Made by a program: the position numbers and the translations under genes | Notes under the pieces: generated by a model | Told to the model about the DNA's origin: nothing | Database searches by the model: none | Seen by the model: only the letters and a program-made list of their open reading frames with translations | In this document: positions 2,959-49,792 of the stretch, in pieces | How the letters are laid out: each line of letters begins with the position of its first letter | Position numbering within the stretch: position 1 is the stretch's first letter | Assembly (NCBI GenBank): GCA_017484135.1 | Contig: JAFUTQ010000003.1 | Coordinates: forward strand, 1-49,792 | Reading direction: 5' to 3' | DNA length: 49,792 bases | Source: Lachnospiraceae bacterium | GTDB lineage: Bacteria > Bacillota > Clostridia > Lachnospirales > Lachnospiraceae

Positions 2959-3223
2959 ATGATTTGAGGGGGAACGGTCATGCCGGGGCAGGAGGCGGAG
3001 GGAAGGGGCAGGTCGACGTAACATTCAGGGTCAAAAGGTCATGCCGACATAGTCGGCATAGACTTTTTTGCACAAAAATCGTTTTGGAAAGCTAGCTTTC
3101 CAAAGCGATTCTTGCGCAAAGTGTGCACATCGTGAAACGATGTGCACCTTTTGACCCGTTTTCACAGAATATGCCCCTTCCCTCCGCCTCCTGCCCCGGC
3201 ATGACCGTTCCCCCTCAAATCAT
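2959..3223. repeat. R1a: cloverleaf-forming intergenic repeat, copy 1 (with 52-bp perfect outer arms)
   Basis: The outermost arms 2959-3010 and 3172-3223 are a perfect 52-bp inverted repeat. Inside, separated by unpaired stretches, an inner stem pairs 3028-3039 (GGGTCAAAAGGT) with 3146-3157. Within it are three arms: hairpin I ATGCCGAC-ATA-GTCGGCAT (3041-3059); a long central arm 3067-3120 centred on TTGGAAAGCTAGCTTTCCAA (3084-3103); hairpin II GTGCACATCG-TGAAA-CGATGTGCAC (3123-3147). It fills the gap between pdp and yqfC and contains no gene. It could also end pdp transcription, although there is no T tract. Confidence 0.9.
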
Positions 3224-3225
3224 GA

Positions 3226-3254
3226 GAATAGAATCTCCAAAAAAAACATATAGT
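3226..3254 (+). promoter_or_regulatory. Probable sigma-E (sporulation) promoter of yqfC
   Basis: GAATAGA (3226-3232) matches the SigE -35 consensus GHATANR, and CATATAGT (3247-3254) matches the -10 consensus CATACAHT; the spacer is 14 bp. In Bacillus subtilis yqfC-yqfD is a SigE operon, which agrees. The transcription start would fall at or within a few nt of the yqfC ATG (3260). The -35 begins 3 bp after the end of repeat R1a. Confidence 0.7.
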
Positions 3255-3259
3255 TACAT

Positions 3260-3541
3260 ATGAAGAAAATGAAACATCATCCAATCATGAAAGAGCATAT
3301 GGTAGAAGCGCTGGAGCTTCCCAAGGATCTGGTGTATCATGCGGCGATTGTGACTGTTTTGGGAAACCGGGAGCTGACGCTGGAAAACTATCGGGGGATG
3401 ATTGAATATCATACCGATCACGTCTGTGTACAGACGAAAAACTGCCGCGTGACTGTGACCGGACAAAATCTGACAATTCCATATTATACGAATGACGAAA
3501 TGAAAATCACAGGACTGATCAAAACGATTATGTATGAATAG
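3260..3541 (+). CDS. yqfC: Sporulation protein YqfC (YabP/YqfC family)
   Basis: A 93-residue protein of the YabP/YqfC family, which is expressed in the mother cell during sporulation and needed for normal spore formation; the biochemical role is not known. The typical segments ITVLGNRELTLENY-like (here VTVLGNRELTLENYRGMIEY) and a C-terminal DDMKIT-type stretch (NDEMKITGLI) are visible. There is no Shine-Dalgarno before ATG 3260; the SigE promoter sits so close that the mRNA is probably near-leaderless. yqfD starts 13 bp after the stop, the same order as in Bacillus. Confidence 0.85.
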   Translation: MKKMKHHPIMKEHMVEALELPKDLVYHAAIVTVLGNRELTLENYRGMIEYHTDHVCVQTKNCRVTVTGQNLTIPYYTNDEMKITGLIKTIMYE

Positions 3542-3554
3542 GAGTGGTGCTGTG

Positions 3555-4826
3555 ATGCTTTCGCTGTTTCGATATCTGAGCGGTTATCTGGAGGTGATGT
3601 TGAGCGGACGTGGAGCCGAGCGTTTCTTAAATCTGTGCAGCAGACACGAGATTCTGATCTGGGATCTTCGGAAGGAACAGGAGGTCTGTTTCTTTAAGCT
3701 CAGCGTCCGATCCTTTCGCAGAATCCGGCCCTATGTCAGAAAGACCGGAATTACCATAAGAATTCAGAACAGATACGGTCTTCCGTTCTGGCTGTACCGA
3801 TACAAAAAACGAAAATTATTTTTTGCAGGCATACTGCTTGCGGCTTCCCTGCTCATTTATCTGTCACAATTTGTCTGGAATATAGAAATTACGGGCAATT
3901 CCCGGGTAACGGAGGATACCCTGCTGCATTTTCTGGAGGAAAACAGCTGGGGGTACGGCAGCAGCAAGAAAAGTCTGGACTGCGAGGCGATGGAAGCGGC
4001 ACTGCGGGAAAGCTTTCCGGACATTATCTGGACCTCGATTGAACTATCCGGCACCAAAATGACGGTGGCAGTCAAGGAAAGTCTGCTCAGCAGGACGGAA
4101 AGTGAACCGGATTCCGGTGAGCCAACGGATTTGATTGCGGGAAATGACGGAATCGTGACATCGATTGTCACCCGAAGCGGAACGCCCTGTGTCAAGGCGG
4201 GGGATGTCGTTGCACAGGGAGATGTGCTTGTCTATGGGAGAATTGACATCTATGATGATGACGGAAATGTTGTGGATTGTCATTACTGCACTGCGGATGC
4301 AGATGTATATCTTCAGGAGGAGGAACTTTATACGGATGAGATTTCGGCGCATTATCTGCAGAAGGAAAAGACCGGAAACCGGAAAATATGTTATACCCTG
4401 GAGCTGTTTGGAAAATGTGTCCCGCTTTTCGCCAAGGCGTGTGGTTATGAACAGTATGAGCTGACTTCGGAATACCGTCAGTGGCGACTGTATCAGAACT
4501 ACTATTTTCCGGTGATTCTACGCATTGACACCTACGAGGAGTACGATGAAACACAGGCAGTTTATACCAGAGAACGCATGAAGGAACAGGCAAAGGAGCA
4601 TTTTGCGATCTATTTAGACGAGTTAGCGAAAAAAAACATTCAAATTTTGGAAAAAAATGTTATGATAAATACGGGGAAGGAAGGTCTGACTGTTTCCGGG
4701 ACATTAACGGTAGTCAAAAAAGCCGGACAGAGACAGAGCACAGATCGCCTCGAAAGCGAAGAAAACATAGAAAATTCAGAAACTACACAGACGAATGAAA
4801 GGTTAGCCGCAGATGAAATGGAATGA
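3555..4826 (+). CDS. yqfD: Sporulation protein YqfD
   Basis: About 423 residues, the size of YqfD. This is a single-span membrane protein of the sporulation programme whose outside region begins with a POTRA/FtsQ-like fold. A cytosolic N-terminal domain is followed by a basic patch (YRYKKRKLFF), one membrane helix (AGILLAASLLIYLSQFVW) and the family-typical IEITGNSRVTEDTLLHFLEE. Start choice: AGGAG (3540-3544) places initiation at ATG 3555 (or the adjacent GTG 3552); an upstream in-frame ATG at 3534 overlaps yqfC and has no RBS. The gene overlaps phoH by 14 bp. Confidence 0.88.
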   Translation: MLSLFRYLSGYLEVMLSGRGAERFLNLCSRHEILIWDLRKEQEVCFFKLSVRSFRRIRPYVRKTGITIRIQNRYGLPFWLYRYKKRKLFFAGILLAASLLIYLSQFVWNIEITGNSRVTEDTLLHFLEENSWGYGSSKKSLDCEAMEAALRESFPDIIWTSIELSGTKMTVAVKESLLSRTESEPDSGEPTDLIAGNDGIVTSIVTRSGTPCVKAGDVVAQGDVLVYGRIDIYDDDGNVVDCHYCTADADVYLQEEELYTDEISAHYLQKEKTGNRKICYTLELFGKCVPLFAKACGYEQYELTSEYRQWRLYQNYYFPVILRIDTYEEYDETQAVYTRERMKEQAKEHFAIYLDELAKKNIQILEKNVMINTGKEGLTVSGTLTVVKKAGQRQSTDRLESEENIENSETTQTNERLAADEME

Positions 4827-5814
4827 AACGGTGGTCAGCATTCCCGCCGAATATATCGCAGAGATTTTCGGGCAGTTTGATCACAATATAAAATTGATAG
4901 AGCGCACGCTTGGGATTACAGTGGTTCCGAGAAATGAAGGAATCAAGATTATCGGGGAGCCGGAGCAGGTAAAGAGTGCCTGCAATGTGTTGGAGCAGCT
5001 GGTAAAGCTTGCCGGACAGGGAACCCGGATCGATGAGCAGCGTGTGTCATATCTGCTGGCGTTGTCAGAAGAACACAAGGAAACGAAGATGGAAGAACTT
5101 GCGCAGGACTGTATCTGCCATACGATCAGCGGGAAACCGGTAAAACCAAAAACCCTCGGGCAAAAGCAGTATGTGGATGAAATACGGGAAAAAATGATTG
5201 TCTTCGGTATCGGGCCTGCCGGAACGGGGAAGACATATCTGGCGATGGCGATGGCGATTACGGCCTTCAAAAACGAGGAGGTCAGCCGGATTATTTTGAC
5301 CAGACCAGCGATTGAGGCGGGAGAAAAGCTTGGGTTTCTGCCGGGAGATCTGCAGAGCAAGGTGGATCCGTATCTGAGACCGCTCTATGACGCGCTCTAT
5401 CAGATTATGGGGGCGGAGAGCTTTCAGCGCAATATGGAAAAGGGACTGATTGAGGTGGCGCCCCTTGCTTATATGAGGGGCAGAACTCTGGACAATGCGT
5501 TTATTATTCTGGATGAAGCGCAAAACACGACGCCTGCGCAGATGAAGATGTTTCTGACCCGTATCGGGTTCGGCGCCAAGGCAGTGATTACGGGCGATGC
5601 CACGCAGAAGGATCTGGCACCGGGAATCAAATCCGGTCTGGATGTGGCACTTCGTGTCCTGAAAAATGTGGAGGGTATCGGAATCTGCCGTCTTCAGGCA
5701 GCCGATGTTGTGAGACATCCGCTGGTACAGCGCATTGTAAAGGCCTATGAGACCTATGAGGCAAAAAATCAGACATCCGCAAAGCGAGGCAAAAAAAATG
5801 ACAGCAGAAGATAA
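4813..5814 (+). CDS. phoH: PhoH-family ATPase
   Basis: 333 residues. Cytosolic P-loop ATPase of the PhoH/PhoL family, related to the N-terminal half of superfamily 1 helicases and linked with RNA metabolism together with YbeY. Walker A GPAGTGKT is at residues 134-141, Walker B is FIILDEAQN, and a GDATQKDL motif III follows. An N-terminal KH-like segment precedes the ATPase domain. It overlaps the end of yqfD, and the next gene begins before its stop, so the yqfC-to-ybeY genes form one operon. Confidence 0.93.
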   Translation: MKWNETVVSIPAEYIAEIFGQFDHNIKLIERTLGITVVPRNEGIKIIGEPEQVKSACNVLEQLVKLAGQGTRIDEQRVSYLLALSEEHKETKMEELAQDCICHTISGKPVKPKTLGQKQYVDEIREKMIVFGIGPAGTGKTYLAMAMAITAFKNEEVSRIILTRPAIEAGEKLGFLPGDLQSKVDPYLRPLYDALYQIMGAESFQRNMEKGLIEVAPLAYMRGRTLDNAFIILDEAQNTTPAQMKMFLTRIGFGAKAVITGDATQKDLAPGIKSGLDVALRVLKNVEGIGICRLQAADVVRHPLVQRIVKAYETYEAKNQTSAKRGKKNDSRR

Positions 5815-6988
5815 ATTTTCACCGCAGCGATTACTTTATATGTGTGGACTGACGGCACTGTTGCTTGCGGACAGTATTTTTTCAGCATGGTATCATCGGC
5901 TGCATACCGAGCAGCTTGTAGTTCTTGCCGGAATTGTTCTTTTATTTTTTCCGGTTTTTTTTGCGGCACTGTCGGTGGAACGGATCAGCGGACGGCTGAA
6001 CGGAGATGTCCGAACGGATCTCAAAGCGTTTACGGGGCATTTTACAATCTGTATTCTGATTTACCTGCTTTTTACGTTTGTGCCGGATTTCTATGCGCCG
6101 GTATTGATTCCGGCAATGTGGCTGTGCTGCGCCGGGGGCAGTTATCTGGGCATGATCGCAAGTGTGTTTCTGAACCTGGTTCTTTGCATCGGGAACGGGG
6201 CCGGGGGAGCTGTGTATATGGCATACACCCTGCTGGCATTGTATGGCTGCATCATGGTGCACCTTGTGACAGAACTGGGACAGGGATTCAAAAAATATAT
6301 TTTTGTCTGCCTGTTTGTAGTCAGCATATTGATTCCGGTGCTTTGCTATTATCTGCAAAATAAAAGCATTTCCCTGCTGATGATTGGAGTGATTGCTGCG
6401 GAAGGAGTGGCGGAGGTTTTGTTTTTGCGGTTTGCATATGAACCGCTGACCAGACAGCGGCAGGATGCGCTGCCCATCAGCCTGCAGGAGATCATTGAAC
6501 CGGATTATCCGCTGGTAAAGGATGTCCGACAATATTCTCAAAGGGACTATGAGCATGCAATGAAGGTGTCTGTGATTGCCGAGGCCTGTGCCCGCCAGGT
6601 ACAGGCGGATGCAGATGTGACTGCCGCCGCGGGTTTTTATTACCGCCTTGGCAAGCTGGTGGGAGAGCCGTTTGTGGAAAATGGCGTGAATCTTGCAAAG
6701 GCAAACTGTTTTCCGCTTCCGGTCGTTAAAATTTTGAGTGAATACAACGGTGAACAGGCGGCCATCAGCTCACTGGAATCGGCCATCGTTCATATCGTGG
6801 ACTGTGTTGTGACGAAATTTGAATTGCTGGATTACGACACCTTTCAGAACTCCTGGAATCATGATATGGTCATCTATCAGACGATGAACGAAAAGTCGGA
6901 GGAGGGGCTTTATGATAGGTCCGGCATGAATATGAATCAGTTTTTAAAAATCAGAAATTTTATTACGAAAGAGGTGGAGCTTTCTTGA
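5798..6988 (+). CDS. Membrane protein with degenerate HD domain (YqfF/7TMR-HD-like position)
   Basis: 396 residues from ATG 5798 (GAGG 8 nt upstream). The first half has about six hydrophobic membrane helices; the cytosolic C-terminal part resembles an HD phosphohydrolase, beginning YEHAMKVSVIAEACARQ (H253 in the first histidine position). The defining metal-binding HD pair is replaced: where active relatives have HDxGK this protein has Y282-R283-L-G-K. The later histidine-rich segment is also changed (SEYNGEQ). In other Firmicutes this phoH-ybeY slot holds the 700-residue 7TMR-HD protein YqfF/PgpH, a c-di-AMP phosphodiesterase. This is shorter and probably catalytically dead. Function unknown. 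Confidence 0.75.
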   Translation: MTAEDKFSPQRLLYMCGLTALLLADSIFSAWYHRLHTEQLVVLAGIVLLFFPVFFAALSVERISGRLNGDVRTDLKAFTGHFTICILIYLLFTFVPDFYAPVLIPAMWLCCAGGSYLGMIASVFLNLVLCIGNGAGGAVYMAYTLLALYGCIMVHLVTELGQGFKKYIFVCLFVVSILIPVLCYYLQNKSISLLMIGVIAAEGVAEVLFLRFAYEPLTRQRQDALPISLQEIIEPDYPLVKDVRQYSQRDYEHAMKVSVIAEACARQVQADADVTAAAGFYYRLGKLVGEPFVENGVNLAKANCFPLPVVKILSEYNGEQAAISSLESAIVHIVDCVVTKFELLDYDTFQNSWNHDMVIYQTMNEKSEEGLYDRSGMNMNQFLKIRNFITKEVELS

Positions 6989-7482
6989 CCATTCACATAG
7001 AAGAGGATACGGAAATAAATTTTGATTTTGACCATAAAGGGCTTGCAAAAGATGTGATATTGTTTACAATGAAACATGAAAACTTTCCGTTTGAGGCGGA
7101 ACTCAATCTCAATCTTGTAGATAATGACAGTATCTGTGCCATGAACCGGGCATATCGTCAGATCGATCGTCCGACCGATGTGCTGTCCTTTCCCATGCTT
7201 TCCTATGAGCAGCCGGGGGATTTTTCAACAATCGACGGACAGGCCGCAGAAAATGTAAATCCCGATACGGGGGAGATTTTGTTGGGGGATATCGTGCTTT
7301 CTGTTCCGAAGGTGCTCCAACAGGCACAGGAGTATGGGCACAGCGTCAGGAGGGAATATGCATTTTTGATCGTACATAGCATGCTGCATTTGTTTGGTTA
7401 TGATCATATGACCGAAGCAGATGCCGCATATATGGAAAATAAACAAACGGAGATTCTGCAAGGCCTGCAGATTCTGAGATAA
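6985..7482 (+). CDS. ybeY: Endoribonuclease YbeY (rRNA maturation factor)
   Basis: 165 residues. A zinc-dependent RNase needed for 16S rRNA 3'-end maturation and ribosome quality control. The metal-binding signature HSMLHLFGYDH (H-x3-H-x5-H) is intact. The earlier RxxDRPTDVLSFPM block is also conserved. It starts with TTG at 6985, overlapping the stop of the previous gene by 4 bp; GGTGGAG lies 5 nt upstream. Companion phoH upstream is the usual pairing. Confidence 0.94.
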   Translation: MTIHIEEDTEINFDFDHKGLAKDVILFTMKHENFPFEAELNLNLVDNDSICAMNRAYRQIDRPTDVLSFPMLSYEQPGDFSTIDGQAAENVNPDTGEILLGDIVLSVPKVLQQAQEYGHSVRREYAFLIVHSMLHLFGYDHMTEADAAYMENKQTEILQGLQILR

Positions 7483-7497
7483 TTGGAGGGTATTCAT

Positions 7498-8604
7498 ATG
7501 AAAAAACTATTGGCTGTACTTTGCACATTCACACTGCTTACAACTGCGCTTGCAGGCTGTGGAGCTAAGAAAGAACCGACAGAGGAGCCGTCCACCGAAA
7601 TTGCGGAGGAATCCGTTGCGGACACAGAGGAACAGACAAACAAGGACGGTCAGATGCGAAGCTTTCTTACCGGTGAATGGGTGGATGCAGAGGAGGCAAA
7701 GCAAAGACCCATTGCTGTTATGATCGGAAACACCAACGATGCCATGCCGCAGTATGGTGTGGGTCAGGCGGATATTTTGTATGAAGTTCCGGTAGAGGGT
7801 GGCATTACCAGATTGATGGCGATTTACGGGGATTATTCCGGCTTGGACAAGATCGGCTCGGTTCGCAGCTGTCGGCATTATTTCGCATATTACGCAATAG
7901 AATTTGATGCGATTTATGTGCATTATGGACAAGCGATTTACGCTACGGAGCTATTGGACAGTGACCGGATTGACAATTTGAACGGAATAGACGGAACCAT
8001 CGATTCACTGGTATTTTATCGCGATTCCGCCCGCAAGCAGCCCCACAATGCATTTACATCCACACAGGGAATCCGTGCAGGGATTGAGCACAAGCAGTAT
8101 GATACCGAATATGCGGAGGATTATGCGGGACATTATAAATTTAATGAGGATGACGAAAACGAGATTCAGCTTTCCGCCGGGGAAGGGGCTGCCGTGGTGC
8201 AGCCGGGATATTTCATCAGCAACACATGGTTTGAATATCATGAAGATGAGGGTGTGTATTACCGATTTGAGTACAAAAAGCCCCATACCGATGAAAATAC
8301 CGGGGAACAGCTGAAATTTAAGAATCTGATCATTCAGTATACGACCTCGAAGGTGTTGGATACGAACCGGGGTTATCTGGATCTGACTACCATAGGCTCC
8401 GGTACCGGCAAATATATTACCAACGGGAAAGCCATCGACATCACATGGAAGCATGATAAGGAAACAGAAGCGACTAAATATTATGATGCCGACGGAAATG
8501 AAATTGTATTAAATCAGGGAAAGACCAATGTATGTGTGCTTCTCGACAGCATGAAGGATCGTTTGAATATTTATGCGGATGCTGCAGACTTTGAGGCACC
8601 GTAA
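7498..8604 (+). CDS. DUF3048 lipoprotein (YerB family)
   Basis: 368 residues. The N-terminus MKKLLAVLCTFTLLTTALAG-C is a lipoprotein signal peptide with LAGC lipobox, so the protein is predicted to be anchored on the outer face of the membrane. An acidic linker follows, then a DUF3048 domain recognisable from PIAVMIGNTNDAMPQYGV, YEVPVEGGITRLMAIY and KIGSVRSCRHYFAYYA. B. subtilis YerB is the relative; its function is unknown. GGAGGG 8 nt upstream fixes ATG 7498. It follows ybeY by 15 bp and may be cotranscribed. Confidence 0.88.
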   Translation: MKKLLAVLCTFTLLTTALAGCGAKKEPTEEPSTEIAEESVADTEEQTNKDGQMRSFLTGEWVDAEEAKQRPIAVMIGNTNDAMPQYGVGQADILYEVPVEGGITRLMAIYGDYSGLDKIGSVRSCRHYFAYYAIEFDAIYVHYGQAIYATELLDSDRIDNLNGIDGTIDSLVFYRDSARKQPHNAFTSTQGIRAGIEHKQYDTEYAEDYAGHYKFNEDDENEIQLSAGEGAAVVQPGYFISNTWFEYHEDEGVYYRFEYKKPHTDENTGEQLKFKNLIIQYTTSKVLDTNRGYLDLTTIGSGTGKYITNGKAIDITWKHDKETEATKYYDADGNEIVLNQGKTNVCVLLDSMKDRLNIYADAADFEAP

Positions 8605-8618
8605 GAGGTAGTAATTTT

Positions 8619-10274
8619 ATGTCAAACCAAAAGAAGGGCAAATCCGATTTCCTGGTACAGGGATCTATCCTCGCGGCAGCATCGCTGATCAGCCGGATCA
8701 TCGGGCTGATCTATCGGATTCCTATGACCAATACGATTGGAAATGCGGGAAACAGCTATTACAGCTCAGCGTATGAGATATACAACATTCTGCTGCTCAT
8801 CTCCGCGTACAGCCTGCCCACTGCAGTATCCAAGCTGGTATCCGTGCGTATTGCCCGGGGACAGCGAAAAAACGCATATCGCATCGTGAAGGGGGCATTG
8901 CTTCTGGCCTGCTGTACAGGGCTTGCCGCATCTCTCATTCTATATTTCGGAGCGGAGGCACTGACAGAACTGTTTCGCTCACCGCTTAGTATTTATGCCT
9001 TAAAGGTGTTGGCACCGACGGTGTTTGTTGTGGCTGTGCTAGGGGTGCTTCGCGGATTTTTTCAGGGACTGGGAACGATGATGCCCAGTGCATTTTCCCA
9101 GATACTGGAACAGATTGTCAATGCAGTGGTCAGCGTGGTGGCAGCGATTCTGCTCTACGGGTATGGTGCGCGTATCGGAGCGGTGCTGGGAGATGCCGAA
9201 AAATACGGCTCCGCATACGGAGCGGCGGGAGGCACGCTGGGCACCAATCTGGGGGCTTTGGCGGCTCTGCTTTTCATTGGACTCCTGTTTTTGGGCTACA
9301 AAAGAGTGTTTCGGAGCCGGATGGCGCGGGATGTCTCGGACAAAACAGAGTCCTATGGCACCATTATCAAAATTTTGCTTTTGACCATTATTCCGGTACT
9401 GCTCAGTACCACCATTTACAATATCAGTGCAATTATTGATCTCGGGATTTACAAAAATGTTGCCGTGGCGCAGGGATATGACATTGATCTGCTGGATGAC
9501 TGGTGGGGAATCTTTACCGGCAAATACAAGACAATTATCAACATTCCGATTGCGATTGCCTCTGCAATGGCAACCTCCTGTGTGCCGAATCTGACTGCGG
9601 CCTATGCAAGCCGGAAAAAAAAGGCGGTGCGCCACCAGATTAACGTGTCCATCCGGTTTATTATGGTGATTGCGTTTCCGTGTATGGTGGGCGTCGCAGT
9701 GCTGGCTTCGCCGATTCTGCAGCTTTTATATCATGACAGCTCTGAGACTTCGGCAAAGATTCTTTGCTACGGCTCCATTGCGATTCTGTTTTATACGCTT
9801 TCCACGCTGTCCAATGGCTTGCTGCAGGGAATCAACCGACTGCGTGAGCCGGTAAAGAACGCGGCAATTGCGCTTGTGCTTCACATTGCATGTCTGCTTG
9901 TGCTCATGTATGGACTTGATCTTAATATTTATGCTGTTGTTTATTCCAATGCTTTTTTTTCGTTCTGTATGTGTGTGTTAAATGCACATTCTCTGAAAAA
10001 ATACAGCGGCTATCGGCAGGAAAAGCTCAAAACCTTCGTGATTCCGTGCTTTTCCTCGGCAGTGATGGGGGTGGCGGTTTATTACAGCTACCATCTGCTG
10101 CAGAATTGGTTGCAGCGAAATGCGATATCGACGGTGGCGGCGATTGCTGCGGGGATTTTGGTCTATGCCGTTATGATGTTGCTTTTGAGAGGGTTGGGCG
10201 AGGAGGAAATCCGTAAATTCCCCAAGGGAGCAGCACTGGTGCGGGGGTTGAAGAGGTTGCATTTATTGAGATAA
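8619..10274 (+). CDS. MATE/MurJ-superfamily lipid-linked oligosaccharide flippase (SpoVB/YtgP-like)
   Basis: 551 residues with about 14 membrane helices. The opening FLVQGSILAAASLISRIIGL and IYRIPMTNTIG are typical of the SpoVB/YtgP branch of polysaccharide flippases, which move undecaprenyl-linked cell-wall precursors or polysaccharides across the membrane. Whether it acts as the vegetative lipid II flippase or in the spore cortex cannot be told from sequence alone. GAGGT lies 10 nt before ATG 8619. The gene lies 14 bp after the DUF3048 gene and ends before repeat R2a. Confidence 0.85.
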   Translation: MSNQKKGKSDFLVQGSILAAASLISRIIGLIYRIPMTNTIGNAGNSYYSSAYEIYNILLLISAYSLPTAVSKLVSVRIARGQRKNAYRIVKGALLLACCTGLAASLILYFGAEALTELFRSPLSIYALKVLAPTVFVVAVLGVLRGFFQGLGTMMPSAFSQILEQIVNAVVSVVAAILLYGYGARIGAVLGDAEKYGSAYGAAGGTLGTNLGALAALLFIGLLFLGYKRVFRSRMARDVSDKTESYGTIIKILLLTIIPVLLSTTIYNISAIIDLGIYKNVAVAQGYDIDLLDDWWGIFTGKYKTIINIPIAIASAMATSCVPNLTAAYASRKKKAVRHQINVSIRFIMVIAFPCMVGVAVLASPILQLLYHDSSETSAKILCYGSIAILFYTLSTLSNGLLQGINRLREPVKNAAIALVLHIACLLVLMYGLDLNIYAVVYSNAFFSFCMCVLNAHSLKKYSGYRQEKLKTFVIPCFSSAVMGVAVYYSYHLLQNWLQRNAISTVAAIAAGILVYAVMMLLLRGLGEEEIRKFPKGAALVRGLKRLHLLR

Positions 10275-28497: not shown

Positions 28498-28545
28498 AAG
28501 GACATTTTGGGGTCAGGGATATTTAAGGTCAGGGACATTTAGGGC

Positions 28546-28581
28546 CAAAAGGTTCACATCGTGAAACGATGTGAACACTTT
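28546..28581 (-). repeat. R1b satellite: inverted copy of the hairpin II arm
   Basis: These 36 nt are the exact reverse complement of 28695-28730, the hairpin II part of R1b with flanking AAAG and CTTTTG. So a second, incomplete R1 piece lies in the opposite orientation about 20 bp before the complete element. Its loop reads TGAAA rather than TTTCA. Confidence 0.85.
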
Positions 28582-28603
28582 GTATAACAAAATGAAGTGA
28601 TCC

Positions 28604-28736
28604 GAGAGTCAAAAGGTCATGCCGACGCAGTCGGCATAGACTTTTTGCATAAAAATCGCTTTGGAAAGCTAGCTTTCCAAAACGATTCTTATGCAAAGTG
28701 TTCACATCGTTTCACGATGTGAACCTTTTGACTCTC
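28604..28736. repeat. R1b: cloverleaf-forming intergenic repeat, copy 2
   Basis: The outer stem 28604-28617 (GAGAGTCAAAAGGT) pairs with 28723-28736. Hairpin I GTCATGCCGAC-GCA-GTCGGCATAGAC (28616-28641); central arm around TTTGGAAAGCTAGCTTTCCAAA; hairpin II GTTCACATCG-TTTCA-CGATGTGAAC (28700-28724). Fills the minE-rodA gap of 277 bp, which holds no gene. Confidence 0.9.
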
Positions 28737-39949: not shown

Positions 39950-39973
39950 TACCTGAAGAGAAAATTTTTTGTA

Positions 39974-40146
39974 TTTTTGAGCGGCGTGAGGTTGGAGGGA
40001 AAAAGTCATGCCGACAGAGTCGGCATAGACTTCTTTCACGGGAAACCGTTTGGAAAAGCTAGCTTTCCCAAACGGTTTCCTGCGAAAGAAGATCACATCG
40101 TTTCACGATGTGATCTTTTTCCCTCCAACCTCACGCCGCTCAAAAA
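39974..40146. repeat. R1c: cloverleaf-forming intergenic repeat, copy 3
   Basis: The outer stem is a perfect 32-bp inverted repeat (39974-40005 with 40115-40146). Hairpin I GTCATGCCGAC-AGA-GTCGGCATAGAC (40005-40030); central arm 40031-40090 around AAAGCTAGCTTT; hairpin II GATCACATCG-TTTCA-CGATGTGATC (40091-40115). It sits between the yneA and lexA promoters. Confidence 0.92.
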
Positions 40147-40170
40147 TACCACCACAAATATACAAAAAAC

Positions 40171-42576: not shown

Positions 42577-42629
42577 TTCAAACACCTCATATTTTCGTTG
42601 CTGTTCGCTCTGTGATCGGTAATGATAAT

Positions 42630-42914
42630 TTAAATTTCAATTTTGGGGTTTTTCTTCGATTTTTTGTACAGGGTAATTTTCTTCCCGATTACGGAAACGA
42701 TTTGGGACTGGGTGCGTTCCGCCAGAACACCTGCAAGCTCCTTTGGCTCATCCTGACAATTCTTCAGAACCGAAATCTTGATCAATTCCCGCTTCTCCAA
42801 AGCTTTGTCGATTGCTTCAATATTTTCCGGTGTCAGACTCGCTTTTCCGATCTGAAAAATAGGCTCTAACGGATTGGCCAGTCCTTTTAAATATGCGCGC
42901 TGTTTACTTGTCAT
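42630..42914 (-). CDS. yhbY: CRM-domain ribosome assembly protein YhbY
   Basis: 94 residues from ATG 42914 (AAGGAG 8 nt upstream). Single CRM RNA-binding domain associated with the pre-50S subunit. MTSKQRAYLKGLANPLEPIF, then FQIGKASLTPE and LAERTQSQIVSVIGKKITLY match the family, including the GxxG-type IGK loop. Follows obg. Confidence 0.94.
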   Translation of the reverse strand: MTSKQRAYLKGLANPLEPIFQIGKASLTPENIEAIDKALEKRELIKISVLKNCQDEPKELAGVLAERTQSQIVSVIGKKITLYKKSKKNPKIEI

Positions 42915-42940
42915 TCCCGTTACTCCTTGATGTGAACACA

Positions 42941-44230
42941 TTATTCCTTATAATAATCAAATTCCAGACTGTACATACGAACGGTGTCCCCATCCTGTAT
43001 GCCCAGCTTCTCCAGTTCCTTCAATATCCCCTGCTCCTTCAGAAACTTCTGGAAAAACAAAAAGCCCTTCTCGGAATCAATATTGGTATAGCCAAGCATT
43101 TTTTCGATTTTCGGTCCTTCCACCACATAAGCGCCATCATCTTCGCTGATCTGAATGGTATAGGGCTCCTCTGCGACCAAATGAGAATCCGGAAAGTACT
43201 CCTGCTCATACACAACAGGCTCATCATCCATCTCATCCAGAAGTCCCTTCACAAAATACATGAGCTCCTTTACCCCCTGACGGCTGACTGCAGAGATGGG
43301 AAAAATTTTTATGCCCTCCGGTTCAAATTCCCGGCGCAGCTGATCCAGAATCTCACTTTCTCCTTCATACAATGCATCGATTTTGTTTGCCGCAATCACC
43401 TGGGGCTTATTCAGCAGCTCGGGATTAAAACGTTCCAGCTCCTGATTGATGGCATAAATATCCGCAACGGGGTCGCGTCCTTCTGTTCCGGCTGCATCTA
43501 CCACATGGATGATGACCTTTGTGCGCTCAATATGCTTTAAGAATTCATGTCCCAATCCGACACCCTCGGAAGCACCTTCAATCAGTCCGGGAATATCAGC
43601 CATTACAAAGCCGACACCGTCGCCGAAGTCCACCACACCGAGAATGGGATTTAAGGTGGTAAAATGATAATTGGCAATTTTGGGACGTGCATTTGTGGTA
43701 CTGGATAACAGGGTGGATTTCCCGACATTTGGAAATCCGACCAGCCCCACATCTGCAATTACCTTAAGTTCAAGGATCACTTCAAGCTCTAAGGCTTCTT
43801 GTCCCGGCTGGGCATATTTGGGTGCCTGCATCGAGGAGGTGGCAAAATGCTGGTTGCCAAGCCCACCCTTCCCGCCGGTTAATATCAGCTGACGGCGGTT
43901 ATTCCCCGACATATCAGCCACAATTTTTTCTGTAGAGGCTTCGCGGATAATGGTTCCGGCAGGTACACGAATCACCAGATCCTCGCCCTTTTTGCCGTGA
44001 CAGTTCCGTTTCCTGCCTTCTTCTCCGTTCTGGGCTGTCCATTTATAAATGTGACGAAAATCGTTTAAGGTATTGATGCTGTCGTCTACTTCAAAGATGA
44101 CATCCCCGCCTTTGCCGCCGTCCCCGCCGTCAGGACCGCCATCCGGTACATATTTTTCCCGGCGGAAGCTGACATGTCCGTCCCCGCCCTTTCCGGATCT
44201 GATCAAAATTTTTGCTCGATCGGCATACAT
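42941..44230 (-). CDS. obg: GTPase Obg (CgtA)
   Basis: 429 residues from ATG 44230 (GAGGAA upstream). Ribosome-assembly and stress GTPase. N-terminal glycine-rich Obg fold (IRSGKGGDGHVSFRREKYVP), G domain with P-loop GFPNVGKSTLL, G3 DIPGLIEGA, G4 NKID, and the C-terminal OCT domain (about the last 70 residues), which is present in Firmicutes Obg. It follows rpmA after a hairpin. Confidence 0.96.
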   Translation of the reverse strand: MYADRAKILIRSGKGGDGHVSFRREKYVPDGGPDGGDGGKGGDVIFEVDDSINTLNDFRHIYKWTAQNGEEGRKRNCHGKKGEDLVIRVPAGTIIREASTEKIVADMSGNNRRQLILTGGKGGLGNQHFATSSMQAPKYAQPGQEALELEVILELKVIADVGLVGFPNVGKSTLLSSTTNARPKIANYHFTTLNPILGVVDFGDGVGFVMADIPGLIEGASEGVGLGHEFLKHIERTKVIIHVVDAAGTEGRDPVADIYAINQELERFNPELLNKPQVIAANKIDALYEGESEILDQLRREFEPEGIKIFPISAVSRQGVKELMYFVKGLLDEMDDEPVVYEQEYFPDSHLVAEEPYTIQISEDDGAYVVEGPKIEKMLGYTNIDSEKGFLFFQKFLKEQGILKELEKLGIQDGDTVRMYSLEFDYYKE

Positions 44231-44274
44231 GATTGATTCCTCTTTATCTTTGATTTTACCATGATAACCATGAA

Positions 44275-44307
44275 ACAGACCCGGCATAGAATCTCTGTCG
44301 GGTCTGT
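44275..44307 (-). terminator. Hairpin between rpmA and obg
   Basis: ACAGACCCG (44275-44283) pairs with CGGGTCTGT (44299-44307), 15-nt loop. On the coding strand it is followed by TT only, so partial termination or mRNA processing between the ribosomal genes and obg is more likely than a full stop. Confidence 0.5.
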
Positions 44308-44316
44308 CGTGTGATC

Positions 44317-44607
44317 TTATTCGTTTGTGGCTACCGGATAAACAGAAGCCTGCTTTTTATCTCTGCCTTTTCTCTCAAATCTGAGAATTCCATCGGTCAG
44401 TGCGAATAACGTATCGTCTCCTCCGATTCCGACATTGGTACCCGGATGGATTCTGGTTCCGCGCTGTCTGTAAAGAATATTTCCTGCCTTCACGAACTGT
44501 CCGTCTGCTCTCTTTGCTCCTAATCTCTTTGACTCGGAATCTCTGCCGTTCTTGGTAGAGCCGACTCCCTTTTTATGAGCGAAAAACTGAAGGTTCATTT
44601 TTAACAT
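44317..44607 (-). CDS. rpmA: 50S ribosomal protein L27, Prp-cleaved form
   Basis: 96 residues. The N-terminus [18 protein letters not shown] carries the Firmicutes extension that must be cut between FF and AHKKG by the protease Prp before L27 can function near the peptidyl-transferase centre. The [20 protein letters not shown] core is standard. RBS AGGAGG. The protease gene lies directly upstream. Confidence 0.98.
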
Positions 44608-44610
44608 GTC

Positions 44611-44940
44611 CTACACCTCCTTAAAATCAAGTGTGAGATACTCCTCACCATAGGTTTTCTGAATTTCCTGCAAGCCTAAAATCATGGAATCCAGCAGCAA
44701 TCTGCCATCGTGCCCGGAGGGCTTCTGAAATTTCAGGCTCAGGATACAATTCTTGCGGTCTTGCTCGATCTCGATCTGTTCGTCTGTAAATGTCCCGATG
44801 GAATTGAAGGTATTGATTACCAGGACGGATATCCCGGCGCAAACCACATCACTTCCGTGATCCGCATACAGCGCATGACCGAAACAGCTCACCGCCAGAT
44901 AGTTGTTTTCCCGATTTTTAAAAATTGTTACTTTTGTCAT
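44611..44940 (-). CDS. prp: Ribosomal-processing cysteine protease Prp
   Basis: 109 residues. Removes the N-terminal extension of L27. The catalytic dyad is at the expected places, H22 in CFGHALYADHGSD and C34 in DVVCAGISVLV. Located between rplU and rpmA, as in other Firmicutes; the rpmA ATG is 3 bp past its stop. Confidence 0.95.
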   Translation of the reverse strand: MTKVTIFKNRENNYLAVSCFGHALYADHGSDVVCAGISVLVINTFNSIGTFTDEQIEIEQDRKNCILSLKFQKPSGHDGRLLLDSMILGLQEIQKTYGEEYLTLDFKEV

Positions 44941-44954
44941 AACAGTTTTTTCTG

Positions 44955-45260
44955 TTACGCGTTGATCTTTTCGATCTTGACCTGGGTATACGGCTGTCTG
45001 TGTCCGTTCTTTTTGTGATAACCGGTCTTTCTCTTGTACTTGTAGACAATGACCTTTTTCGCTCTGCCTTCTTTTACAACCGAAGCCTCGACCGTTGCAT
45101 TTTTTACGTCATCTCCGACCTTTAATTCCTTGTCAGAAACGGCAATGACCTGATCAAAGGTTACTGTCTCGCCAGCCTCAACACCAAGCTTTTCAATGGT
45201 AATGATATCGCCTTCGGATACTTTGTACTGTTTACCACCTGTTGCTATAATTGCGTACAT
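44955..45260 (-). CDS. rplU: 50S ribosomal protein L21
   Basis: 101 residues from ATG 45260 (AGGAGG 6 nt upstream). [18 protein letters not shown] and the C-terminal [18 protein letters not shown] are hallmarks. First gene of the rplU-prp-rpmA unit; the upstream leader and promoter are listed separately. Confidence 0.98.
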
Positions 45261-45350
45261 ACGGCACCTCCTATTTATCATTACTCGCCAGTTACGGTGT
45301 CGTCTCCGTAAACTCCGGGGACAAGCTTAAACCTCACTGTGCGGCATACT
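45261..45350 (-). promoter_or_regulatory. Probable L21 leader (autoregulatory 5' UTR)
   Basis: The roughly 90-nt transcribed leader before rplU contains self-complementary segments (for example CCCGGAGTTTACGG followed by CCGTAACTGG) and no reading frame. Firmicutes commonly carry a conserved L21 leader RNA here through which the protein represses its own operon. Assignment is by position; I did not match it to a covariance model. Confidence 0.5.
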
Positions 45351-45355
45351 CGATT

Positions 45356-45384
45356 ATATTATCACAGGCTGCACTGCCTGTCAA
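45356..45384 (-). promoter_or_regulatory. Strong sigma-A promoter of the rplU operon
   Basis: Minus-strand TTGACA (45384-45379), 17 bp, TAATAT (45361-45356). The start would be near 45349. Confidence 0.75.
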
Positions 45385-45449
45385 GTCTCTTTCGGATTTT
45401 ATTCCGGGAACAGCAACTTACTTACAATTCATCACTTAGACAACAAACA

Positions 45450-45588
45450 GCTGTCGGCACGATATTGTACTCTCTCGGGGCACTTGAAAAACGCCGGTTC
45501 TTGGCTTGCGTATTTTGCAAGCCTAGTACCGCTGCGTTTTTCGCGTAGCGAGAGCGTGCCCCGAAGAGTATAATATTGTGCTGACAGC
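45450..45588. repeat. R2c: complete R2 repeat with branched interior
   Basis: The left arm 45450-45483 (GCTGTCGGCACGATATTGTA...) pairs with 45556-45588. Three positions are G in the left arm facing T in the right, so they pair only as G-U wobble in the plus-strand transcript. The interior holds a small CTTGCGTATTTTGCAAG hairpin and CGCTGCG-TTTTTCG-CGTAGCG. It lies between the end of the RNase G gene and the rplU promoter. Nothing else is seen in 45390-45636. Confidence 0.85.
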
Positions 45589-45636
45589 GTCCGGTGGTCA
45601 AATGCTGAATCGTCATTTGTTTATGGTTCCATTAAG

Positions 45637-46839
45637 CTAGGAACAATATTCCAGTTGTTCCCGCAAGGATTTTTTCTGCTTTTTTCGCGTAATTTCCATA
45701 AGCCCTAAGGAAGTGATATCGATTGCCTGCGCACTGACGGGATCATCCTTGAGCAAACCGGACATATAGGACAGAAGCTGCTGCTCTTCCTCCTTAGACG
45801 TTAAGTTGATAAAATCAACGACGCAGATGCCGCTGATGTTTCGAAGCCGCAGCTGCCTTGCGATTTCCGTTGCGGCTTCTAAATTGATGCGGAAAAAATA
45901 GTCCTTCTGCTTCTTTTTTCCTTCATTTTTTCCGCTGTTTACATCAATCACAGTCATTGCCTCGGTAGGCTGTATGATCAGATAGGCACCGGACTTTAGC
46001 CAGACTCGTTCCTGTAAAGCATGCTCAATCAGGGAATTGATGCTGTACCGGGCATTTAATCCATAGGAATTTTCTGTTTTTTTGTCAAAAAATGACAGCT
46101 TATCAAGCATTTCGGGTATATCTTGAAACTTTTCCTGCAATTTCTGATACAGCACAGGCTGATCCACGATGATCTGTTCCAATTCTTCGAACCTGATATG
46201 GGAAAGCATGGGCATGAAAAAAAGCTCGGGTTCCTTCAGAACACTGTAGCAGGTGCGGTATCTGTACTCGGAACTTAGCTTTCGGTAAGATGCAGAGAGC
46301 TGCGCGAATTCTTTTGTAAGTTCCTCGTCTGTGGCCGATTCGGCATTTGTCCGAAAAATCAGGCTGCCCTCAAATTTGGACACAAACGGAAGCGACTGCA
46401 GTCGTTTTTTTGTTTCCGCAGACAGCTTTTTCGAATAGCCCACACCCTTCGCCTCATTCGTAAGTACCAGATAGGCTCCGGCAAATTCCAGCTGCCCGCT
46501 GACAATCGGAAATTTGTTTCCGGTTCGCTCTCTTTTGATCTGAACCACAAGCTCATCGCCCTGTGTAATCTGTTCTGCCCGCGCCCGCTTCACAAACCAT
46601 GTATCGGAAAGACTGCGCAGATCCATATAGCAGGTCTTCCCCTTTTGGATATCCACGAACATGCCGTGAAGCTTTGGCTGAATGTCTTTGATTTTTCCGA
46701 TACAGATGGTGCCGATGCTTTCGGTTGCCGTCTCCTCAAGGGGCGCGATTTCCAGATCTGCTGCGGCATCCTCTTTCAGATGCAGTGCCACATAGGTTTT
46801 TTTGATGCAGGTTTGTGTGGTAATGATGATTTTATGCAA
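45637..46839 (-). CDS. rng: Ribonuclease G/E family protein
   Basis: 400 residues from TTG 46839 (GGAGG 6 nt upstream). Single-strand endoribonuclease for rRNA processing and mRNA decay. An S1-like domain near the N-terminus (IGTICIGKIKDIQPKLHGMF), then the catalytic domain with the metal aspartates in TVIDVNSG and VVDFINL. It lacks the long C-terminal scaffold of E. coli RNase E, so RNase G-like in form. It overlaps the upstream gene by 8 bp. Confidence 0.92.
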   Translation of the reverse strand: MHKIIITTQTCIKKTYVALHLKEDAAADLEIAPLEETATESIGTICIGKIKDIQPKLHGMFVDIQKGKTCYMDLRSLSDTWFVKRARAEQITQGDELVVQIKRERTGNKFPIVSGQLEFAGAYLVLTNEAKGVGYSKKLSAETKKRLQSLPFVSKFEGSLIFRTNAESATDEELTKEFAQLSASYRKLSSEYRYRTCYSVLKEPELFFMPMLSHIRFEELEQIIVDQPVLYQKLQEKFQDIPEMLDKLSFFDKKTENSYGLNARYSINSLIEHALQERVWLKSGAYLIIQPTEAMTVIDVNSGKNEGKKKQKDYFFRINLEAATEIARQLRLRNISGICVVDFINLTSKEEEQQLLSYMSGLLKDDPVSAQAIDITSLGLMEITRKKQKKSLREQLEYCS

Positions 46840-47554
46840 GAATATCCTCCCCCATATCTTCCAACGCCAGAAAGCTGCCGTCACTGCGGCGGGTATATAC
46901 CTCCCGGCGGTGGATCTGAAGCTTTCCGGGCTCATAATCCGTCGGTATGGATTGGTAAAAGGTCTCCAGTAAAAGCTCCGGCTTTACGTTCTCTATGCTG
47001 CCGGTGGACAGTCGGAGAAAAAAACAGGGTCTTTTCGGATTCGAATCCATTTGAAAGCAGTAGACCAGCTGCTTTAGATCCATCTGCTTTTCACTTTTTT
47101 TCGTCTTTTTTGTGACGAGAATTTCCGCAGCGTCTTCATAAAAGGTCTTGATCGCCTCCTGCCATTGCTCCGGAGAAAAGGGGTTGTCCTGCGGGTTCTT
47201 GTAATACACCTGATAATCTGCGGCAGAGACAATGGACATGGCCGTTTTTGCATCGTCCGGCAGTCTCCGGTAGGAAAGCACCTCCACCCCTTCCACCATG
47301 GTTTGATTCAGGGCTTTGACGGCGTCTTGGGATGACAGGCTCGAATGCACCTCAATATCAAAGTATTCCCCGTCGCTGACGATTCCGACACCGAGCGGAG
47401 CGGCAAAGGACATGATCTGATGCGGGGAAAAGCCCTCCGAGTAAACGATATCTATGTCTGCCCGCCGCATGGCTTTCTGAAAATATCGCATCATGTCCAG
47501 ATGTCCGATAAATTTTATGACTCCGTATTTTCGAAACTTAATTCTGATTTTCAA
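46832..47554 (-). CDS. DUF2344 radical-SAM-associated protein (TIGR03936 family)
   Basis: 240 residues from TTG 47554 (AGGAGGGG just upstream). Family landmarks are the start KIRIKFRKYGVIKFIGHLDM and SEGFSPHQIMSFAAPLGVG. It has no SAM-cluster cysteines of its own and nearly always follows the larger radical SAM gene, suggesting the two act together, perhaps on tRNA or rRNA; the reaction is unknown. It overlaps both neighbours. Confidence 0.87.
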   Translation of the reverse strand: MKIRIKFRKYGVIKFIGHLDMMRYFQKAMRRADIDIVYSEGFSPHQIMSFAAPLGVGIVSDGEYFDIEVHSSLSSQDAVKALNQTMVEGVEVLSYRRLPDDAKTAMSIVSAADYQVYYKNPQDNPFSPEQWQEAIKTFYEDAAEILVTKKTKKSEKQMDLKQLVYCFQMDSNPKRPCFFLRLSTGSIENVKPELLLETFYQSIPTDYEPGKLQIHRREVYTRRSDGSFLALEDMGEDILA

Positions 47555-49403
47555 AGCAGACCCCTCCTTGAAACCTGGCAGCACCGCAGCCTTGACACTG
47601 CATCCGGCAGTTGGGGCTTACTACCCCGTCCTTTGCCCGCTGCCATTCCCGTGCCAGAAATTCTCTGGAAACTCCCGCATCAATGAAATCCCACGGGAAG
47701 ATTTCGTCCAGCGGACGTTCCCTCTGTGTGTAAAAATCCGGGTCAATTCCGCATTCCGCAAATGCCCTTATCCAGCGCTCATTGTCAAAAAATTCTGTCC
47801 ATGCGTCAAAGATTCCGCCCAGCTCATAGACCCGTTGCAGTGCCTGTCCGATTCTGCGGTCTCCGCGAGCCAGAATCCCCTCCAATACCGTCACGTCTGC
47901 CTCATGCCAGTTGTAACGGATGCTCTTTCGGTTTAGCTGTGCTTTCACCGCCTCATTGACGATTTTTGCCCGCCCCAGATAACTGTCTCTGTCGTACATA
48001 CGCGCCCATTGAAACGGGGTAAATGGCTTTGGCACAAAAAATGAGGTGCTGATGGTAATCTGACATTTGCCGTTTCGTTTTTCCTTTGGAATTTCATAAT
48101 AGCGCACGGCAATTTTGTTTGCCAGCTCGGCAATCCCACGCATGTCCGCTTCGGTTTCCGTGGGAAGTCCCAGCATGAAGTAAAGCTTTACCTTATTCCA
48201 GCCGCCGTCAAACGCCATACCGGCTCCCTCCAGAATGGATTCCTCTGTCAGTCCTTTGTTGATGACGTTTCGCATACGCTGGGTTCCGGCCTCCGGCGCA
48301 AAGGTCAGGCTGCTTTTTTTGATATCCTGAACCTGATGCATGATATCTAAGGAAAACGCATCAATGCGCAGGGACGGAAGGGAAATATTGACATGCTGCT
48401 TCTGAAAGGTTTCGATGAGAAAACGCATCAGCTCCTCCAGCCGCGAATAATCGCTGGTACTTAAAGAGCTTAAGGAAATTTCCTCATGTCCCGTATTTTT
48501 TAACAGCGCATAGGCGGTCTGTTTGAGCTGCTCTACATCCTTTTCCCTGGTCGGACGGTAAATCATTCCCGCCTGGCAAAAGCGACAGCCCCGGATGCAT
48601 CCACGCTGTACCTCCAGAACCACCCGATCCTGCGTCACCTTAATAAACGGTACAATCGGCTTTTCGGGATAAGGAGCCTTGTCCATCTGCATCAGAATCT
48701 GTTTTTCCACCTTTGCGGGAATGTCTTCATATTTCGGGGTAAAGGCAGCAATGGTTCCGTCTGTGTGATAGGATACCTGGTACATCATGGGCGCATAAAT
48801 TCCCGGAATCCGCGCGGCGCGGTGAAGAAATTCCTCTCTGGAATAAGCCTCCTTCTGATACTCCTTATACAGGGCAAACAGTGCATCATAGGAGATTTCT
48901 CCCTCCCCGATATAAAACAGATCAAAAAAGTCCGCAATCGGTTCCGGATTGTAGGTACAGGGGCCGCCTCCGATCACGATGGGATGCTCCTTCGTTCTGT
49001 CTGCGGCAAGCAGGGGAATCTGCGACAGATCCAGAATTTGCAGAATGTTGGTATAGCACATCTCATACTGGATGGTAATTCCCAGAAAGTCAAAATCCCG
49101 CACCGATTCCTGTGTCTCCAGTGCAAACAGCGGAATCTGCTGCTCCTTCATGATTTTGTGGAGATCCGGCCAGGGGGAGTATACCCGTTCGCAGTACACA
49201 TCCTCACGTTTGTTGAACATATCGTACAAAATCTGGATTCCCAGATGTGACATGCCGATTTCATACACATCCGGAAAACACATGGCAAAGCGTATGTCAA
49301 CGGCAGCCGGATCCTTTTTGACCATATTCAGTTCATTTCCGATATAACGGGCAGGATTGTCTACCGTCATAAGGATTTCATCGCTCAGTGCTAACTGATT
49401 CAT
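47538..49403 (-). CDS. TIGR03960-family B12-binding-domain radical SAM protein
   Basis: 621 residues from ATG 49403 (GAGG 6 nt upstream; an ATG four codons earlier lacks spacing). N-terminal cobalamin-binding-like domain, radical SAM core with the 4Fe-4S motif CIRGCRFCQAG, and a cysteine-rich C-terminus (CRMQCQGCGAARF) that could bind another cluster. In other Firmicutes this gene, its DUF2344 partner and RNase G stand together upstream of rplU. The substrate is unknown. Confidence 0.9.
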   Translation of the reverse strand: MNQLALSDEILMTVDNPARYIGNELNMVKKDPAAVDIRFAMCFPDVYEIGMSHLGIQILYDMFNKREDVYCERVYSPWPDLHKIMKEQQIPLFALETQESVRDFDFLGITIQYEMCYTNILQILDLSQIPLLAADRTKEHPIVIGGGPCTYNPEPIADFFDLFYIGEGEISYDALFALYKEYQKEAYSREEFLHRAARIPGIYAPMMYQVSYHTDGTIAAFTPKYEDIPAKVEKQILMQMDKAPYPEKPIVPFIKVTQDRVVLEVQRGCIRGCRFCQAGMIYRPTREKDVEQLKQTAYALLKNTGHEEISLSSLSTSDYSRLEELMRFLIETFQKQHVNISLPSLRIDAFSLDIMHQVQDIKKSSLTFAPEAGTQRMRNVINKGLTEESILEGAGMAFDGGWNKVKLYFMLGLPTETEADMRGIAELANKIAVRYYEIPKEKRNGKCQITISTSFFVPKPFTPFQWARMYDRDSYLGRAKIVNEAVKAQLNRKSIRYNWHEADVTVLEGILARGDRRIGQALQRVYELGGIFDAWTEFFDNERWIRAFAECGIDPDFYTQRERPLDEIFPWDFIDAGVSREFLAREWQRAKDGVVSPNCRMQCQGCGAARFQGGVCFENQN

Positions 49404-49629
49404 CGTTTTCCTCATTCCAAAGCGTATAGTTTTCCTGTAACTTTTCATATACGGTATCCGTATCAAAGGAAAAGAAGGGATAATTGGTCTGCAGGCAGAT
49501 AAAAAACGCCACAAACAAAAAGACCGACAGCAACAGCCGGATTTTACAACCGATAAAGCTGGGTGCCTCGTCCTCTTCCTCCACCTGGTTCCGATACCGC
49601 ATCTGGCGGTAATAGGGGTCTTGCTTCAT
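49378..49629 (-). CDS. Small single-span membrane protein, function unknown
   Basis: 83 residues from ATG 49629 (GAGG 6 nt upstream). A hydrophilic N-terminus rich in Tyr, Arg and Gln with an acidic stretch, one membrane helix (IRLLLSVFLFVAFFICLQ), then a short outside tail ending in an acidic segment. I do not recognise a family. It overlaps the radical SAM gene by 26 bp, so it is probably cotranscribed with it and heads the operon within the window. Confidence 0.65.
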   Translation of the reverse strand: MKQDPYYRQMRYRNQVEEEDEAPSFIGCKIRLLLSVFLFVAFFICLQTNYPFFSFDTDTVYEKLQENYTLWNEENDESVSTER

Positions 49630-49705
49630 AAACAACCTCGCATGAAATATTGGTATATGGATATTTTATGTGAGGTTGTTGGGATAAATACATGATGTTT
49701 GGTTG

Positions 49706-49792
49706 ATGCCGAGGTCAGGTTGGGTTTCGGAAAAAGGTCATGTCGGCGTAGCCGACATTGACTCTTTGCATAAAAATCCCATCGGAAAGCTA
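49706..49792. repeat. R1d: cloverleaf-forming repeat, copy 4 (cut by window end)
   Basis: Left outer arm up to about 49736 (GAGGTCAGGTTGGGTTTCGG), hairpin I GTCATGTCGGC-GTA-GCCGACATTGAC, then the left side of the central arm CTTTGCATAAAAATC...GGAAAGCTA, where the window ends at the GCTA of the central palindrome. Hairpin I stem bases differ from the other copies but stay paired. The start coordinate is approximate. Confidence 0.85.

Follow-up and report, generated by a model that had tools for sequence, protein, structure and literature searches.

R1 is an intergenic repeat that keeps a cloverleaf shape while its sequence changes, and it occurs several times in a 49,792-nt stretch of DNA from a Lachnospiraceae bacterium (assembly GCA_017484135.1, contig JAFUTQ010000003.1). 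This stretch, hereafter the window, is the entire contig C49 of the genome under study, G000, a 2.55 Mb draft that is 83% complete. We consider it likely that R1 is a foldback DNA module, cloverleaf-shaped and capable of forming a cruciform, which is spread by non-autonomous elements of the miniature inverted-repeat transposable element (MITE) type and whose palindromes are maintained by copying between their arms. The copies have one four-way junction in common, and in relatives of G000 the module sits in elements that end in terminal inverted repeats and are bordered by direct repeats of 8–11 nt. A DDE-type transposase acting in trans, the gene for which was not found, would have moved these elements, and template switching during replication would copy one arm from the other and so keep the palindromes nearly perfect. 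Such copying would give rise to paired double changes and flipped loops and would let the outer stem grow into host DNA, so that each copy would come to have a well-paired outer stem of its own. Some selection on shape is probably added to this, because the plan and the apex AARCNNGYTT are retained in different genera and, as a related version, in different phyla.

The window contains three full copies of R1, one copy truncated by the contig end and one fragment. Each full copy folds into an outer stem, hairpin I, a long central arm and hairpin II, and the folds of copies 1–3 confirm the single shared four-way-junction plan proposed in the initial annotation. All four copies lie on the plus strand; genome-wide, R1 uses both strands. 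In copy 2, a 12-bp outer stem (28604–28615 paired with 28725–28736) encloses hairpin I (28616–28641, then TTTTTGC), the central arm (28642–28698) and hairpin II (28700–28724). As single-stranded DNA, this copy folds with −49.7 kcal/mol, compared with −14.4 kcal/mol (standard deviation 3.0) for 200 shuffled sequences (z = −11.7). Copy 1 has a perfect outermost stem of 52 bp (2959–3010 with 3172–3223, 52 of 52 positions paired), the left arm of which carries a ATGATTTGAGGGG end and a piece resembling the start of hairpin I. An internal loop separates it from a 10-bp inner stem (GGGTCAAAAG at 3028–3037, partner 3148–3157), followed by hairpin I (3038–3063), the central arm with apex GGAAAGCTAGCTTTCC (3064–3122) and hairpin II (3123–3147), whose loop is inverted and reads GAA, not TTC. 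In copy 3, all 34 positions of the left arm (39971–40004) pair with the right arm (40116–40149) around hairpin I (40005–40030), the central arm (40031–40090) and hairpin II (40091–40115). Of the stem lengths of 12, 14 and 32 bp reported earlier, the 12 bp of copy 2 hold, and the other two are replaced by 52 bp plus the inner 10 bp in copy 1 and by 34 bp in copy 3. Copy 4 consists of a probable left arm of the outer stem (49694–49736), hairpin I with a ATGTCGGC-type paired change (49737–49762) and a central arm truncated by the contig end (49763–49792); the partner of the left arm would lie beyond that end, and a similar arm in a copy on contig C109 (L030) suggests the pairing. The covariance match of copy 4 covers 49729–49792 and is cut at its 3′ side. 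The fragment is a lone hairpin II of a further, inverted copy on the minus strand (28552–28576, within a covariance match at 28545–28649). Imperfect short repeats (GGTCAGGGAYATTTA) stand beside it in the region 28500–28600, directly 5′ of copy 2.

We built a covariance model from 44 copies, 38 from G000 and six from its genus mate G005. In the alignment of these sequences, 96.5% of 2154 base-pair cells are paired, compared with 35.5–43.9% in slid controls, and two-sided changes occur in 35 of the 49 pairs where shuffles lead one to expect 14.3 (none of 500 shuffles reached as high a value). The suggestion that folding is preserved while sequence changes is thus borne out by an excess of paired two-sided changes. 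A larger alignment of 78 rows from two phyla, which favours structure by construction because its rows were fitted to the first model and include both strands of many copies, has 93.7% of 3664 cells paired against 58.9% after shuffling.

The module measures approximately 115–125 bp and is abundant. BLAST returned at least 75 matches in G000 on both strands (40 of the 132 candidates scored), and the covariance model returned at least 143, again on both strands (E ≤ 0.01; 150 of the 1409 candidates scored). Merging of strands and overlaps leaves at least 85 distinct places, among them the three full copies of the window, to which the truncated copy 4 is added; the inference from four copies that the genome would hold many more was therefore correct. 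Copies within about 60 nt of a contig end are also found on C109 (at both ends), C29 and C82, as expected, since a repeat breaks assemblies.

Evidence for mobility comes mainly from relatives, and it upholds the suggestion of a non-autonomous mobile hairpin element. In G206, the cloverleaf lies inside elements of approximately 190–195 bp with terminal inverted repeats that start with TTTGAGTTTCCCC, and this end sequence has 105 hits, compared with none for a backward control. We inspected 29 loci and dropped eight that lack a right end; the 21 loci with both ends represent 18 distinct elements, and for 16 of these the 16-nt flanks contain direct repeats that measure 8 nt or more (11 nt at most). 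When the flank partners were shuffled 500 times, the mean was 1.1 of 18 and the maximum 6 of 18. The end sequence in G333 has 107 hits against one for its backward control, and direct repeats of at least 7 nt occur at 19 of the 25 loci with both ends, with some elements counted as two loci, one for each end; five loci that lacked a right end were excluded. The element ends include TTTGAGTTTCCCC, GATTTGAGGGG and GGGGCTGTCGCA. In G000 itself, the end ATGATTTGAGGGGC has 101 hits against seven for the backward control and is recognised on both sides of 36 of the 85 copies. The elements have no coding capacity, are present in many copies and measure about 115–200 bp, as is typical for MITEs.

Elements also occur inside one another. 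In one G333 element (ends L348 and L349), a second element with GGGGCTGTCGCA ends and a cloverleaf of its own replaces hairpin II of the first, and a second copy of equal length probably lies at C60:5083–5444; an arm of the junction can thus be a whole element. In the G000 copy L038, hairpin II is swapped for a hairpin with somewhat similar letters. Another small repeat of approximately 85–90 bp, containing GGAGGAAGCC...GGCTTCCGACGA...GGCAGGTGACGCGAAGCGG, is situated in hairpin II or in the central-arm apex of three cloverleaf copies (L032, about 1700–2250 on the minus strand; L190:200–440; L270:5866 onward), as if it targeted hairpin loops. Two further candidates were rejected. Inversion of the whole core within MITEs was sought in 26 stretches from related loci, in which hairpin I comes first in 18 and hairpin II in none, with eight unclassed; and the short palindromes that might have been clean core-less precursors read as deletion derivatives, since they keep pieces of the core or lack the outer sequence.

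The shape of R1 is probably kept mainly by DNA copying from arm to arm. PMC8604942 describes the inversion of a short spacer between inverted repeats as a product of template switching, and PMC8794818 does the same for paired changes in stems. Both kinds of change are found in hairpin II and in the stems. Among 71 copies with a readable hairpin II loop, 53 have TTC and six have its reverse complement GAA. Comparison of each of the 85 copies with its nearest copy gives 49 identical loops, 17 that differ (by letters at equal length or by inversion) and 19 that are not comparable; in five of the 17 differing loops the change is an exact inversion, two of the five probably being reciprocal comparisons. 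The outer stems of 85 copies have 2183 matched, 98 mismatched and seven gapped positions. They reach at least 24 bp in 39 copies, 32 of which contain no more than two mismatches, and the longest mismatch-free stems measure 65 bp genome-wide and 52 bp in the window. Many of these stems are mutually unlike, and words such as GATTTGAGG and GGGGNCAGGATGG recur in some of them.

Two copies have outer stems that extend into host genes. The stem of the copy at position 3581 of L250 (50 bp, five mismatches and two gaps) spans the last six codons of threonine synthase (thrC), a solved homologue of which (8g1y) likewise ends in LG. At L037, a 37-bp stem with six mismatches spans the final nine codons of a gene of the DJ-1 family, and the homologue 4e08 aligns into these codons. 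At both loci, the opposite arm, beyond the element, carries the gene end again in inverted orientation. The simplest account would be that the flank was copied outward, with the coding side as the original, as the homologues suggest.

Several observations weigh against the combination of arm copying and MITE-type spread. Genome-wide, the hairpin I loops also fall into complementary classes (GTA/TAC 31/4, ATA/TAT 6/2, GCA/TGC 7/1), but none of 42 differing nearest-copy comparisons is an exact inversion, and ordinary substitution therefore explains hairpin I as well as inversion does. The two stems that contain host gene ends pair less well than most. In the orientation of the core, the left outer arms of 69 copies contain 635 G and 176 C (69 G and 26 C in the part beyond 34 nt), a bias that copying of random flanks does not predict. 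L260, at the end of contig C112, has a 134-bp stem with six mismatches, which may reflect stem growth or a fold-back artefact of assembly. With respect to mobility, target duplications are weak in G000, where only four of the 36 copies with both ends have exact 7-bp repeats, and we saw no empty site. Core-less elements of 59–95 bp in G206 and G333 also carry duplications, so that the cloverleaf seems dispensable for movement and its own role is left unexplained. No transposase was found between the ends listed for G000, G206 and G333, which are incomplete drafts; the sole G333 pair of ends that lies 1–3 kb apart and is more than just two short elements encloses two open reading frames without a Pfam match (C20:1566–3037). 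The partner proposed in the initial annotation, a RAYT-like or other Y1 (TnpA-like) transposase, is not supported either, because PF01797 has no match in G000 (83% complete) and the same search was positive in five of 14 genomes. The absence of nearest-copy inversion in hairpin I and the imperfection of both host-derived stems have slightly lowered our confidence.

A related fold is present in Bacteroidota. Twenty-one of 28 Bacteroidota places lie 0–19 nt 3′ of a tRNA gene called by ARAGORN (one overlaps it by a base), the tRNAs being Ser in 12 cases, Met in four, Arg and Pro in two each and Glu in one. As for the other places, L240 has a tRNA-like end not recognised by ARAGORN, L291 is the second copy of a tandem pair and follows an 18-nt piece of tRNA, and four copies in G546 are four-way junctions with no tRNA found nearby. 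L295 was set aside as a doubtful model hit: behind a tRNA-Arg, which its match overlaps, it forms one long hairpin that carries the apex but is not a cloverleaf. The hairpins and outer stems of copies in G334 (L222, L234, L239 and L242) look mutually unrelated; the plan and the apex are kept. The apex AARCNNGYTT is found in all 19 Bacteroidota copies tested, in 26 of 27 copies from other Clostridia and in 55 of the 85 G000 copies, where at least 11 of the remaining apexes read ATGCNNGCAT. Both the motif used in the scan and the models are biased towards this apex, so that its constancy is in part a product of the search; the position next to tRNA genes is not. In G000, a single tRNA was found in 75 loci, 112 nt from a copy.

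Two observations concern the surroundings of the Bacteroidota folds. At three of the 21 loci (L299, L303 and L296), a stretch of 15–18 nt from the tRNA 3′ end is repeated downstream of the cloverleaf, and two of the three also have a second cloverleaf copy, whole or partial. We rejected an integration scar as the origin of these recurrences, because two of the three cases are tandem duplications, which are possible via short homologies. Inspection by eye also revealed a REP-like hairpin of the GGGATTACGAAGTAATCCC type that recurs behind Bacteroidales tRNA genes, downstream of the cloverleaf (L286, L289, L299 and others).

A bolder reading, which we put forward tentatively and regard as possible at best, takes R1 and these relatives as an independent structural DNA module present in at least two phyla. 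Its shape and an AARCNNGYTT apex, not its sequence, would be inherited, unrelated MITE frames would carry it in Lachnospiraceae, and its sites would be gene 3′ ends or, in Bacteroidota, positions behind tRNA-Ser and a few other tRNA genes; its arms would be regenerated by fold-back copying, with new outer arms taken from host DNA. MITEs and template switching are themselves already known. What appears to be new is the combination of a four-way junction carried as cargo by different MITE frames, stems that look copied from the host, and a fold adjacent to tRNA genes in another phylum.

The fold could instead be a structured RNA under selection (a cis-regulator, a terminator or a small RNA), the compensatory changes of which would reflect RNA function. 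We judge this unlikely. The strong covariation and the position behind tRNA genes of most Bacteroidota folds speak for it, as does the proximity to gene 3′ ends. Copies with stems of at least 24 bp lie a median of 8 nt from stop codons (n = 43) and 83.5 nt from start codons (n = 32; P of about 10⁻⁶); for shorter stems, the corresponding values are 18.5 nt (n = 40) and 80 nt (n = 46). This proximity is partly expected, because promoters and ribosome sites precede start codons, and the growth of stems as far as the stop codon may account for another part. The copies are mostly intergenic, and among genes defined by simple calls of open reading frames of at least 90 codons, 26 copies are oriented with and 27 against tandem neighbours, 12 lie between convergent and 11 between divergent genes, and nine are undecided. 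This lack of a strand preference argues against a strand-specific form of the regulatory RNA offered earlier as one interpretation. RNA selection acting on one strand is expected to tolerate G-U but not A-C. Over 84 copies, mismatched cells number 106 G-T and 66 A-C, and without three columns of inherited, lineage-dominated variants they number 46 and 40, which leaves no clear excess of G-T. Point-by-point selection is not required to account for stems that run for as many as 65 bp without mismatch, conservation is confined almost entirely to paired positions, and there is no Rfam match: the gathering-score scan found nothing in the window and only tRNA and tmRNA in eight related loci, and sub-threshold matches in a lenient scan were mostly microRNA hairpins, none of them credible. 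The initial annotation had left selection and a copying mechanism side by side as causes of the preserved fold. The hairpin II loop inversions, the strand-symmetric mismatches and the host gene ends within stems support copying better than selection alone.

A second alternative, to which we give no greater weight, is a bidirectional intrinsic terminator that mobile elements would carry as insulation, with hairpin I and a T-run acting in one direction and hairpin II in the other. Its location after stop codons and tRNA 3′ ends would suit such a function. A hairpin followed by at least five T in eight positions is found in the forward direction in 39 of the 85 G000 copies, and the region around copy 2 has three terminator-like hits, compared with 0.4 in shuffled sequences; among 19 Bacteroidota copies, read on the contig strand, 11 pass forward, seven in reverse and four in both directions. 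However, just one of the 85 G000 copies passes in reverse and none in both directions, and the 27 copies from other Clostridia give three forward, three reverse and none in both. Moreover, several copies seem by eye to lie between a promoter and a start codon, where termination would silence the gene. Lacking the T-runs, the bidirectional terminator was rejected as a general rule. Most doubtful is the idea that the cloverleaf core is a mobile unit in its own right that enters existing palindromes (MITEs or terminators) at their centre and turns them into its outer stems: the core does occur in three or more element frames that differ in their ends and behind tRNA genes, and outer stems do differ among copies, but the core-less elements examined look like deletion derivatives, not clean empty sites, and two outer stems include host coding ends.

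The distribution of R1 is patchy, which fits mobile elements. Searches over more than 40 genomes used stricter filters. The first model matches five of 299 Lachnospiraceae genomes, including G000 and G005; a broader second model matches five of 391 Clostridia genomes at E ≤ 10⁻⁴, including G000, and, in the order around G334, 12 of 295 genomes, with G334 as one of them. With BLAST, G000 and G005 are the sole matches among 61 genomes, their own included. Among the matches listed, G333 has 58 copies, G206 approximately 50, G270 12, G005 seven and G318 six. A scan of one genome per species with a motif of the central arm alone yielded nine stretches. Six are full four-way junctions, two have hairpins but no clear outer stem (L212 and L217), and one (L215) is unrelated and not a cloverleaf. 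In G237, a foldback element longer than 200 bp, present in three copies (L311, L315 and L319), has the cloverleaf at its centre and GCAAGCTAGCTTGC at the apex; L311 and L319 are full cloverleaves. BLAST of copy 2 and of the G206 element found no match in phages and plasmids, and viral contigs gave no exact match to two central-arm patterns. The statement that no named repeat has this plan agrees with the Rfam scans, and we found no paper on this repeat in the open PMC literature.

Among known systems, R1 resembles MITEs in that it is short, has many intergenic copies and terminal inverted repeats, and has relatives with target duplications as well as deletion derivatives that still carry them. 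It differs in having a fixed internal four-way junction common to frames with different ends, outer stems that vary between copies yet pair, and a related fold that follows tRNA genes in a second phylum; nor was a partner found among the ends listed in G000, G206 and G333. With repetitive extragenic palindromes (REP) and REPINs, which are served by RAYT (Y1) transposases and reportedly carry GTAG/CGTC tags, R1 shares multi-copy intergenic palindromes, but it has four arms, target duplications in relatives and no Y1 transposase in G000. Integron attC sites and parvovirus-type terminal hairpins also conserve shape above sequence; the likeness is one of shape, as R1 has four paired arms and almost no unpaired positions. 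Quasipalindrome correction and other template-switch mutations, as described in PMC8794818 and PMC8604942, resemble R1 in arm homogenisation, multi-base paired changes and loop inversion. In R1, the family affected would be mobile and dispersed, and the process would also lengthen stems into the ends of host genes.

R1 represents a natural, multi-copy record of palindrome evolution in bacteria; with 85 copies in a single genome, one can measure how arms are copied, loops flip and stems grow. Covariation in stems is commonly read as a strong sign of a functional RNA; in R1, much of it is best read as the product of DNA copying, and this reading, if true, would call for caution in covariation-based RNA discovery. 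The relatives adjacent to tRNA genes in Bacteroidota raise the question of whether two phyla share a structural site.

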